Assembly: GCA_028710655.1 (NCBI GenBank)
Contig: JAQTTS010000060.1
Span: 1-9,604 of the forward strand
DNA length: 9,604 nucleotides
Direction of reading: 5' to 3'
From: Dehalococcoidales bacterium
Lineage (GTDB): Bacteria > Chloroflexota > Dehalococcoidia > Dehalococcoidales > UBA5760
Part shown: positions 4,317 to 6,733 of the stretch, in pieces
Layout: every line of letters starts with the position of its first letter
Position numbering within the stretch: the stretch's first letter is position 1
Position numbers and translations under genes: made by a program
Notes under the pieces: generated by a model
The model's database searches: none
The model's input: only the letters and a program-made list of their open reading frames with translations
Told to the model about the DNA's origin: nothing

Positions 4317-6733
4317 CTCTGCCTCTCTTCCAGCCACACCCTGACGGCAGCCAGGTGACGCTCGTTGATGTCGCGGTGGCTGAGCATCTTCTCCAGTCCG
4401 AAGCAGTTCTCGCCGGGGCCGAGATGGATGATCGGTTTACCTGCCTCTTCCCAGATTTTTACGGCTTGCTGAATGGTCATCCCGAGTTTTTCTTCCGTAT
4501 CCTTCCAAAAACCTTCACAACTGTCACAACCGTCACGGTTAGCTTCAGAATCTCGTGAAGGTTCTTCAGGGCCGGAAAGACCTTCACAGTCCTGGACTGA
4601 ATCTGAGAGCGAGGGCTGTGAAGGTTCCGTTACCTCTTCAACACCTTCACCAGAACCTTCACAGCGTGGCTCCACGTCTGGGCGTGAAGGTTGTGAAGGT
4701 TGTGACGGATTTTCCGGGCATAGGGAATCATCCAGTGAAAGGCCGTAGCGTATTGCCAGGTGCCTCATCTTTTCTTCATCCCAGCAGATAACCCGGCGTC
4801 CGCATCCCGGTATCCTCGTCTTCTCCAGCCCCAGCCTTTTGGTTTGCCAGCCTATCTTTTCCGCGATGAGGGGCGGGGCCTCTTCATCCATCTGGTTGGC
4901 TTTTTCCGCGATCGTCTTGCTGGAAATCTCCCCACCCTCTTTGTGGAGAGCGATGATCGCCGCCAGCACTCGGCCGGCATTGCTCTCCTGGCGCCGGGAG
5001 AATAGGCTATCCTGCAGCCGGTGGACAAAACCTGCTAAGGCTTCAACCATAGCCCCATCGCCGTTCAGCATTGCCTTTAAGGGGATGAGTATCTCCTGGA
5101 GACGGGGCTGAAGATTCGGCTCAATCAGCTCGTTACCGAAGGTCTTTCCCTTGAGCCGGGTCAGGTTGGCCAGCCTGAAGGTAAGAAGTTTGGAGCGTAG
5201 CTCATTTACTTCCCTGTCGAAAGTCGGCGGCAGCACCCTGGGGATGTCATCCCGGGTGAGCGCCAGCATCTCGGAAGTCAGGCAGCGGCTCTCCAGCGCT
5301 TCGTCTTTGAAGGGGAAACGGGTAGAGATAAGCTTGGGACCGAAGACCTGGTAGCTGCGGGGATACCACTTGCCGTTCTCCTTGTCAGCCCGCAGCACCG
5401 GCATGCCGGGGCGGTAGCCGTTGTTTAACAGCTTGACCATCTCCGTCCAGGCAGCCGAGTCCTTGAAGTCGGCCTCGTCCAGCACCAGCGTCCCCCGGAA
5501 CTGTTCGAGGATGCGAAAGATCGGCGCCGGGGTGGTGGCTCCGGAAGCGAATATGGGGCGGAAACAGATAGAACCGGCTACCTGCAGAAACCTGGTCTTA
5601 CCGGTGCCCCAATCGCCGATAACGCGGAGATATGGTATGGATGGGGCGAACTCGAAGACCCAGGTCAAGAGCACATAAAGAGAGCTTATCTCCTCAAAGT
5701 CTGCCGGCAGTTCCAGGTAGCGGTGAATGAAGTTCCTGATTTCGCTGAATAGACGCGCCTGCGAGTCATAGGGGACGGCGGTAGAGGCAAAGTGTACCAC
5801 CTCTCCCACCAGGAGATCGTTGGTGGGAAGATAGGTCACCTTGGCCGTCTCGTACTGATAGGCTTTCCTCACCAGTCCGTTGGCCACGATCATGAAGGAA
5901 CGTTCATCATCACGGCTGACGACCATCTCGCCCACTATGCCGTCGGGCAATACGAAGCCGGAGACGAAACGATTCTTATCCTCGGTCTCTTCCAGCTTGA
6001 AATTACCGGCCAGCTTCTCGGCGTCCTGTAAAGAATAGCGAAGAAGGTAATCATCGATGCCCGTCTTGCTCTGCCCCTCGAGTTGGGGAAGCTGGATAAT
6101 TTGAACAGTGGCTCCTTTGCGCTTGACGTGCTCGCCAAGATGCTCAAGAGCTTTTCGGACCGGCTCCTTGGTGACGATGTCCGAGTCGAAGGCCAAGTAG
6201 ACGGTACGGTTTTTCAGGGCGACATAGTCCCAGTCGGCAAGAAAGGTGATGCCGCCGAACTGGTTTTTGCCTTTGAATCCCCAGACCCCGGTAACGGAGA
6301 TAGCGCACGCCCCTTTAGAGGCCAGGGCGTCGGCTTTCTTCGAGCCTTCCGTAATCCATAGGGGAGTCTTTGGGTCTCCTATCTCTTTCTGGCAGCGTGG
6401 CGGGCAGTCGAGCCGGAGCGAAGAGCCAGACGGAATCTCGTACTTCACCGGTTTGTCACGATTGTTCGTCCGGGGATGGTCGGGACGGAACTGGAATCCC
6501 GCCTCTTTACCGTCCACCGACCTGAGGGGAATGAGGATACCGGGAGCCCGCTGCTGGGCAGGGGTGTAGCCGAGCTTCTCAAGCTCTGACTTTCCCAGGA
6601 GGCTCCGGTATCCCCGTTCCCTGATTACATCTACACTGATGCCACTCCCCTCACTCAGGTGGCGAAAATGGTCGGCCAGGAGCTCGGGAAGAGCTTCGGA
6701 AAAGACAGACTTGGCGCCATTTTCGTCTTGCAC
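4313..6733 (-). CDS. Replication protein: TOPRIM (DUF3854-like) primase domain fused to P-loop helicase/ATPase
   Basis: This 806-residue protein looks like the element's initiator. Residues about 60-230 form a DUF3854/TOPRIM-like unit: LWITEGSKKADAL (E129 the likely catalytic acid), WGFKGKN, LAFDSD (182-187 region) and GIDDYLL (225-231). Residues about 340-500 form a P-loop ATPase with Walker A GDWGTGKT (373-380), Walker B TLVLDEAD (D419, E420) and a sensor-like KLISTR (467-472), as in phage and plasmid primase-helicases. A linker at 674-742 rich in Ser/Pro and CEG/EPS triplets is encoded by 9-bp repeats. A C-terminal unit (743-806) has GPGENCFGLEKML. The GTG at 6733 has AAGGA six bases upstream. 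It probably primes and unwinds the excised element. Confidence 0.85.
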   Translation of the reverse strand: MQDENGAKSVFSEALPELLADHFRHLSEGSGISVDVIRERGYRSLLGKSELEKLGYTPAQQRAPGILIPLRSVDGKEAGFQFRPDHPRTNNRDKPVKYEIPSGSSLRLDCPPRCQKEIGDPKTPLWITEGSKKADALASKGACAISVTGVWGFKGKNQFGGITFLADWDYVALKNRTVYLAFDSDIVTKEPVRKALEHLGEHVKRKGATVQIIQLPQLEGQSKTGIDDYLLRYSLQDAEKLAGNFKLEETEDKNRFVSGFVLPDGIVGEMVVSRDDERSFMIVANGLVRKAYQYETAKVTYLPTNDLLVGEVVHFASTAVPYDSQARLFSEIRNFIHRYLELPADFEEISSLYVLLTWVFEFAPSIPYLRVIGDWGTGKTRFLQVAGSICFRPIFASGATTPAPIFRILEQFRGTLVLDEADFKDSAAWTEMVKLLNNGYRPGMPVLRADKENGKWYPRSYQVFGPKLISTRFPFKDEALESRCLTSEMLALTRDDIPRVLPPTFDREVNELRSKLLTFRLANLTRLKGKTFGNELIEPNLQPRLQEILIPLKAMLNGDGAMVEALAGFVHRLQDSLFSRRQESNAGRVLAAIIALHKEGGEISSKTIAEKANQMDEEAPPLIAEKIGWQTKRLGLEKTRIPGCGRRVICWDEEKMRHLAIRYGLSLDDSLCPENPSQPSQPSRPDVEPRCEGSGEGVEEVTEPSQPSLSDSVQDCEGLSGPEEPSRDSEANRDGCDSCEGFWKDTEEKLGMTIQQAVKIWEEAGKPIIHLGPGENCFGLEKMLSHRDINERHLAAVRVWLEERQR
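4510..4710. repeat. Iteron-like cluster of 9-bp GTGAAGGTT repeats in both orientations
   Basis: Exact GTGAAGGTT occurs at 4555, 4618, 4684 and 4693; its complement AACCTTCAC at 4510 and 4654. Near copies lie at 4519, 4528, 4579, 4642 and 4702. Three head-to-tail units run at 4510-4536 and three at 4684-4710, pointing towards each other, with pairs of opposed units between (4555/4579 and 4618/4642, both pairs 24 bases apart and the pairs 63 bases apart). The array lies wholly within the primase coding region and encodes a low-complexity linker. The layout resembles an iteron origin. Confidence 0.6.

Follow-up and report, generated by a model that had tools for sequence, protein, structure and literature searches.

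A putative replication origin inside the initiator gene of a Dehalococcoidales mobile element

Why should the gene of a primase-type protein carry a dense set of short DNA repeats, in both orientations, within its own reading frame? This question is raised by a stretch of 9,604 nucleotides from a Dehalococcoidales bacterium (phylum Chloroflexota; contig JAQTTS010000060.1 of assembly GCA_028710655.1), referred to here as the window, in which the gene in question occupies positions 4313..6733 of the reverse strand and encodes a protein of 806 amino acids that we term the initiator; loci used for comparison carry L numbers. A sequence-only reading of the window had proposed that 9-bp repeats (iterons) at 4510-4710 form a replication origin within this gene. 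Judging from related loci and from analogy to known replication modules, we consider it very probable that the winged-helix (wHTH) domain of the initiator would bind these iterons and that the array would serve as the replication origin of an integrative element.

The iteron array in the window and in related loci

Between positions 4510 and 4710 the window contains eleven copies of GTGAAGGTT in both orientations, six of them exact, three with one mismatch and two with two mismatches; the latter two were assigned by their register with a tandem triplet, all others by word match. On the reverse strand, an exact copy (4510..4518) is followed by copies with two mismatches (GTGACAGTT, 4519..4527) and one mismatch (GTGACGGTT, 4528..4536), and further copies lie at 4579..4587 (one mismatch, GTGAAGGTC), 4642..4650 (one mismatch, GTGAAGGTG) and 4654..4662 (exact). 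The forward strand carries exact copies at 4555..4563, 4618..4626, 4684..4692 and 4693..4701 and a copy with two mismatches at 4702..4710 (GTGACGGAT). Read along the coding strand, with A standing for AACCTTCAC and B for the opposite orientation, the order is A A A, B B, A, B, A, B B B. The two outer triplets point towards each other, and the inner pair 4555/4579 is repeated exactly 63 bp further on by 4618/4642, with the copy at 4654 placed between the inner pairs and the outer triplet. The sequence-only reading had counted at least six exact and five near copies over about 200 bp, with facing outer triplets and two opposed pairs at a 63-bp period, and the coordinates bear this out, the copy at 4654 being additional to that plan. 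All copies share one codon phase, and the two orientations encode different triplets, as had also been noted for CEG and EPS: we read EPS or QPS from one and CEG, GEG or RDG from the other.

The clustering exceeds what chance or coding constraints produce. Ten matches with at most one mismatch occur in the whole window, nine in the cluster and one at 3566, whereas 200 dinucleotide shuffles average 1.71 and never exceed 7. When the protein and its codon usage were kept and any word was admitted, the window's count of 9 compares with a mean of 4.1 and a maximum of 6 over 60 shuffles; for its own word, which was picked from the same data, six exact copies stand against a mean of 0.08 and a maximum of 2 in 1000 shuffles. 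The remaining 1991 bp of the initiator gene contain no copy of GTGAAGGTT with at most one mismatch. The best-word test was applied to the last 420 bp of the gene in 26 loci, 19 of which constitute the family, using 9-mers found de novo and 60 synonymous shuffles. Eighteen of the 19 family loci exceed all shuffles and L001 ties, whereas among the seven distant relatives or members of other families L008 alone does so; one of the ten matches in L028 falls outside its array. With words chosen post hoc, the own-word array lies above 1000 synonymous shuffles (at most one mismatch) in 12 of 12 loci, and all twelve keep linker repeats in both orientations, spelled differently. The word registers for mapping and for the own-word tests were set after the de novo words and are shifted from some of them. 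Loci with broken or cut C-terminal ends (L005, L006, L007, L022, L032 and L035) were left out of the in-gene tests; in L007 and L032 the frame breaks before the wHTH.

Nine distinct words occur in the family, that of the window (AACCTTCAC) and eight more, several of the loci being close kin: AACCGTCAC in L001, AATGTCCGC in L002, TAGTGTCCG in L003, AAACCTTCG in L004, ATGCTTCGA in L034, AACCTTTCG in L024, L065, L026, L068 and L028, AACCGTCCG in L023, L064, L067 and L027, and TACTGTCCG in L013, L025, L029 and L066. The plan of the array is conserved, with A copies first and B copies last in all 19 mapped loci, 7-13 copies of the 9-bp word per array and, L034 excepted, recurrent spacings of 9, 12, 24-26 and 27-30 bp. 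The 63-bp step of the inner B-A pair recurs with another word in L023, L064, L067 and L027; it measures 75 bp in L024 and L065, and shorter arrays have a single inner pair. A plain dyad model with inverted half-sites was tried and rejected, as mirror symmetry over 11 loci does not go beyond shuffled labels or gaps; it is marginal in L004, a perfect mirror with 10 of 10 sites, and in L028 (shuffled gaps, p about 0.04, uncorrected). An AT-rich unwinding element was likewise considered, and no strong block was found beside the arrays; in the window the AT fraction is 0.47 in the array, 0.55 in the following 60 bp and 0.43 in the open reading frame (ORF).

Selection acts on the DNA letters of the array, because the iterons undergo near-zero substitution and the words are read in several codon phases. 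Between L023 and L027, none of 72 iteron nucleotides differ, compared with 24 of 129 in the spacers and 473 of 2100 in the rest, and synonymous codon differences amount to 0/24, 4/27 and 273/574, respectively; the corresponding nucleotide counts for L024 and L026 are 2/80, 34/133 and 398/2085. Other pairs among the nine compared give a like picture; where divergence is lowest, the spacers have hardly changed either (2/77 in L013/L025 and 4/77 in L025/L029). The same word appears in two codon phases in L002, L003, L013, L023 and L027 and in three in L034 (six of twelve loci). The two-phase loci yield PS, VS, TS or LS as against RP or CP on one strand and mostly AD or SD on the other, and the three readings in L034 are NASK, MLR and ISFD. 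Since one word is used in two or three phases, a peptide repeat cannot explain the array. In relatives whose protein ends after the wHTH, the array can even leave the gene: that of L030 (around 2781 on the coding strand of the ORF) begins before the stop codon and continues past it, with six copies, including an outlying one at +371, against a null maximum of 4 in 20 shuffles. The array of L038 straddles the stop likewise (around 2637; five against 3), and L031 is borderline (around 2214; five against 4). These three loci are possible intermediates between intergenic and in-gene origins. The linker peptide is weakly constrained and the DNA letters are strongly constrained, so that the earlier proposal of selection on DNA rather than on protein is upheld: the iterons are almost frozen while the spacers drift, and in the alignment of homologues that had been suggested as a check, the DNA repeats are kept, as is much of their spacing, while the linker peptide changes. 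Among the other linker types we saw no homologue that keeps the CEG/EPS peptide through other codons, the window being the only CEG/EPS DNA compared.

Co-inheritance of the winged-helix domain with the array

Based on Pfam, PHROGs and Foldseek, the initiator combines a DUF3854 domain (a DnaG/TOPRIM-type primase) with a P-loop ATPase or helicase-like part, a winged helix, the iteron-coded linker and a C-terminal tail, all encoded on the reverse strand. The DUF3854 domain covers residues 120-232 (6038..6376; Pfam, 3.6e-22). PHROGs returned primase matches and weak primase/helicase matches, and Foldseek matched the primase part to the DnaG cores 2au3, 5guj and 4e2k (E about 1e-6). In the ATPase or helicase-like part, GDWGTGKT at residues 373-380 (5594..5617), which we take to be a Walker-A-like motif, is invariant in an alignment of 19 sequences save for T377 (T or S). 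The wHTH domain (residues 585-662; 4748..4981) shows the order H-H-H-b-b-H in the AlphaFold2 model of the protein and, modelled alone, reaches a predicted local distance difference test score (pLDDT) of 82, its third (recognition) helix spanning residues 624-633 (4835..4864) and its wing residues 638-649 (4787..4822). Searching PDB sequences with the family profile gave no match, and the wHTH model had none among PDB structures at E ≤ 0.001. Directly after the wHTH lies a polar linker (residues 669-740; 4514..4729) encoded by the iteron array and predicted to be disordered (pLDDT about 27-32), followed by a C-terminal tail domain (residues 745-803; 4325..4501) that is ordered in the AlphaFold2 model and recognised by similarity matches. 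This tail (GKPxIxLGPGENCxDLEKLL...NERHL) recurs on other initiators, L048 and L061, and also in a 172-residue open frame (G218:C41:1956-2129).

The part of the protein with which the array is inherited was analysed by assigning ten linker types from peptide patterns (P0054 by hand) and mapping them onto trees built from 80-residue windows. Of 137 rows, 121 entered the test, 16 being without some part; the partial L068 had been excluded beforehand. The number of parsimony changes of linker type is 43-55 for residues 1-260, 34-45 for residues 241-540 and 26 for residues 501-580, drops to 11 at the wHTH (590-668), where the minimum possible is 9, and amounts to 27 at the tail (745-803), compared with about 67 for shuffled linker labels. 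In these trees the linker type follows the wHTH and not the N-terminus or the C-terminal tail. The tail lies as near to the linker as the wHTH does, and distance alone therefore fails to explain the difference.

Mutual information points the same way. For two pairs of linker types, its mean normalised value with linker type is 0.25-0.36 in the wHTH versus 0.04-0.06 in residues 1-500. In the pair PSQ/EG and PSQ/DG, represented at the DNA level by the window (AACCTTCAC) and L001 (AACCGTCAC), it is 0.25 in the wHTH, 0.05 in residues 501-584 and 0.04 in residues 1-500, and among the 14 residues that carry most information are 627 and 630 (recognition helix), 642 and 644 (wing) and, elsewhere in the domain, 661, 604 and 585. 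Co-variation with linker type is seen in the recognition helix at residues 627 and 629-631. The wing, which occurs in PGCGRR, SSRRR and GKxRQR forms, appears to go with different 3' ends of the iteron: paired by eye, GKxRQR accompanies words ending in GTCCG, SSRRR those ending in TTTCG or TTCG, and xGxGRR those ending in TCAC. Such pairings of wing or helix with word are associations among related sequences and not proof of contact.

On balance, we lean towards the view that wHTH and linker together make up a specificity cassette that can be exchanged and has nine words or more; it would recombine as a unit between primase/ATPase bodies and have equivalents on other primase heads (PriCT/AEP-type, L034 and L048). 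It would have arisen from an origin situated after a helicase-wHTH gene, as in L080-L083, then come to straddle the stop codon, as in L030 and L038, and finally been brought into frame through fusion to a tail domain that had once been separate; the stop-straddling form in L030 and L038 lends this history more weight. If the cassette exists, the family would amount to a natural table of winged-helix specificities, each gene carrying the target of its own protein.

Proposed origin function and alternative explanations

In the mechanism we propose, initiator molecules would bind the 9-bp iterons via the winged-helix domain encoded just upstream of the array, and the facing iteron clusters would position helicase/primase assemblies, which would melt and prime the DNA, presumably once the element has been excised. 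The array doubles as the code for the predicted disordered linker between wHTH and C-terminal tail, and wHTH and array would be passed on together as one specificity cassette. Several observations weigh against this proposal. The ATPase/helicase part is poorly modelled (mean pLDDT of 65 for the full-length AlphaFold2 model), and its assignment as a helicase comes from the P-loop motif and the weak PHROGs matches, no helicase family having been found for the initiator in Pfam or NCBIfam. Exact mirror symmetry of the arrays is no better than chance in the 11 loci, and the AT fraction of the 60 bp after the array is 0.09-0.12 above that of the ORF in five of 12 loci, the other seven showing a smaller rise or none. 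Five genomes with two copies of the gene have the same linker type in both, so there is no sign of sorting by incompatibility. On the N-terminal side, moreover, the number of type changes falls gradually towards the linker, and the position of recombination breakpoints could be a partial cause of the co-inheritance of wHTH and linker.

The co-variation of wHTH and array predicts binding and not its purpose, and the array lies inside an operon. Both facts would suit an autoregulatory operator or silencer, at which binding of the wHTH limits the transcription or copy number of its own gene while the origin lies elsewhere. We regard this as improbable, as a roadblock about 2 kb into a gene with 7-11 sites would be unusual, the window and the five 18-kb loci examined contain no further cluster of the word, and comparable arrays beside related helicases lie at or after the stop codon, like the origins of SaPI and SCCmec. 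It is less probable still that some other protein of the element, such as a helix-turn-helix (HTH) regulator or a zinc-finger protein, binds the array as a partition or regulatory site: several HTH proteins are indeed encoded by the element, but the linker type tracks the recognition helix and wing of the same protein's wHTH over the rest of that protein.

The remaining alternatives dispense with a DNA-binding protein. That the inverted repeats build an RNA structure in the mRNA seems very unlikely. A well-folding transcript (z = -5.1) is what inverted repeats of any kind are bound to give, yet no Rfam match was obtained at the gathering threshold, copies within one gene change their word together and not pair by pair, and the array of L034 has ten direct and two inverted copies, most of which therefore cannot pair. 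We give hardly any credence to the repeats being a peptide feature, in which a low-complexity PSQ/CEG linker is selected as protein and the DNA repeats are a by-product. Disorder and polarity of the linker and the single codon phase of the copies in the window would fit such a feature, but synonymous shuffles never reach the observed counts (at most one mismatch) in any of the 12 loci, one DNA word gives different peptides in its several phases and on the other strand, the iterons hardly change between pairs, and the array of L030 runs past the stop codon.

If the array is the origin, mobile elements of Dehalococcoidia and relatives would hold a self-contained initiator-origin gene. The replication of such elements has been little described; one account describes the ssrA islands of Dehalococcoides as being without replication genes, and the module described there differs from the present one (PMC3146451). 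With its own recognition word inside each homologue's gene, protein and target could be read together from sequence, which would provide a natural set of protein-DNA pairs for studying the evolution of winged-helix specificity. The array also shows clearly that DNA letters can be under selection within a reading frame, and it cautions that repetitive linkers of the PSQ/CEG type in annotated proteins can turn out to be DNA elements.

Genomic setting and comparison with other systems

The window probably represents the early part of an integrative element, judging from the neighbouring genes, a serine recombinase in L001 and the overlap with tRNA genes in L002 and L004. The initiator gene is adjoined, as in L001, by a gene for a Gp3-like recombination directionality factor (6759..7736, reverse strand; PF18897, 3.7e-42). 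An HTH repressor-like regulator (8497..8934, forward strand; domain scan) is divergent from the initiator operon, and an M78 (ImmA-like) peptidase (8957..9604, forward strand; PF06114, 3.5e-8) is cut by the window end. Other neighbours are HTH regulators, a sigma-like HTH protein, a DnaJ-like protein and an AAA protein. An MCM/RuvB/AAA-like ATPase encoded downstream of the initiator (2183-3166), with a similar gene in L001, is possibly a helicase loader or clamp-loader-like partner. The comparable gene order of L001 extends as far as a gene for a large serine recombinase. An ORF of matching position and size takes the place of the recombinase in L002 and L004 and overlaps a tRNA gene; a tRNA search of eight loci found tRNAs in these two only. 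Named relatives belong mostly to Chloroflexota and Dehalococcoidales, including Dehalococcoides mccartyi, and no relative was found in the viral contigs scanned with a single initiator protein.

Arrays also occur on other primase heads. L034 (781-3126, forward strand) has a PriCT primase domain in place of DUF3854 and an in-gene array in three phases. L048 (1279-4086, reverse strand), a TOTE/AEP-type primase protein with 26% identity over residues 264-806 and 61% in the tail, contains AAAGTGTCC seven times in three phases over the ORF (null maximum of 4 in 12 shuffles), with no array above the null in its last 420 bp alone. Among Chloroflexota DUF3987/D5_N primase-helicases, in-gene arrays are not general: with a threshold of the null maximum plus two (six shuffles), one of 46 rows, five of which repeat an ORF, is positive, and five more exceed the null by one. 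The positive row is L097, a D5_N primase-helicase with six in-gene copies of GTGACACTT in three phases. Of the 30 DUF3987/D5_N loci whose flank was long enough, six have a significant array within 420 bp downstream of the gene. Four of the six, the closely related L080-L083, have AAGTGTC-type words, mostly in A-clusters followed by B-clusters, and their AAGTGTCAC-type arrays, mostly facing clusters, occupy the first 270 bp after the stop codon of a 541-residue DUF3987 gene, between this helicase gene and one for a zinc-ribbon (by eye CHC2-like) primase-like protein; they are candidate origins of other Chloroflexota elements. L077 uses the word TCAACATTC, and the downstream array of L075 (GGCGATGGC, AAABAB) is unlike those of the other five. 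Among the distant relatives, L008 has 5 copies in the last 420 bp (null maximum 4) and 4 over the whole ORF (null maximum 3); for L063 the counts are 5 (null maximum 5) and 5 (null maximum 4), respectively. Arrays were not above the null in L011, L033, L041 and L061, nor in primases of a Streptomyces plasmid and a Streptomyces phage, a plasmid protein of Haladaptatus or the CyRepA of pAQ1.

Eleven viral contigs contain an exact 21-mer composed of tandem window words, and in eight of them it lies within an array of 5-7 copies in both orientations under no frame longer than 191 residues. These arrays of the window's exact 9-mer are located in L124 (4423-4657), L123, L125-L128, L130 and L131, and six of them (L124-L128 and L131) share one spacing. 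In L124, L125 and L131 the array adjoins the gene of a 489-residue protein whose end is wHTH-like by eye; a similar protein of 507 residues is encoded about 2.7 kb from the array in L130, and none was seen in L123. A tandem-copy pattern search allowing two mismatches matched 50 of 393 genomes and was uninformative, as the reversed control matched widely too. Tandem copies resembling AACCGTCAC, in both orientations, extend over about 500 bp at G154:C22:2694-3197.

We saw no published account of the present initiator family in searches of the open-licence literature. CyRepA, a cyanobacterial plasmid Rep shown to support replication (PMC10079941, PMC9978351), shares the DUF3854 domain, but its second half is a DEXDc domain, which differs from the initiator with no helicase family in Pfam or NCBIfam; the word "iteron" is absent from the main texts of both papers, and the CyRepA of pAQ1 has no in-gene array. 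The DUF3987 helicases of L080-L083 come from the same phylum and resemble the family in their AAGTGTC-type words and mostly A-then-B clusters, their arrays lying between genes and not within one. In phage lambda, the initiator O binds iterons within its own coding sequence (PMC3349717, PMC7466680); there are four of them, each of 18 bp, together with an AT-rich block of 38 bp. The sequence-only reading had drawn the parallel to lambda O, and it holds for the position of the array within the initiator gene, the origin function being putative here. It does not extend to 18-bp iterons, the AT-rich block or homology to O: the present arrays have 7-13 copies of a 9-bp word in facing clusters and no strong AT-rich block, the initiator is a wHTH-bearing primase/ATPase protein in its own right, and no lambda O-type family match was found for it in Pfam or PHROGs. 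In SaPI Rep and SCCmec Cch2, the C-terminal domain of a helicase binds short iterons directly downstream of its own gene (PMC7581432). The wHTH of the initiator (585-662) likewise follows the P-loop part, whose helicase activity is putative, and the Cch2 iteron AAGTG resembles the AAGTGTC word of some arrays in our set; in contrast, the iterons of the window lie inside the gene and are followed by a further tail domain, while a downstream or straddling layout is met in L030 and L038. In-gene origins are already known from lambda, and by analogy the present family would represent the same device as SaPI Rep and Cch2, placed inside the gene.

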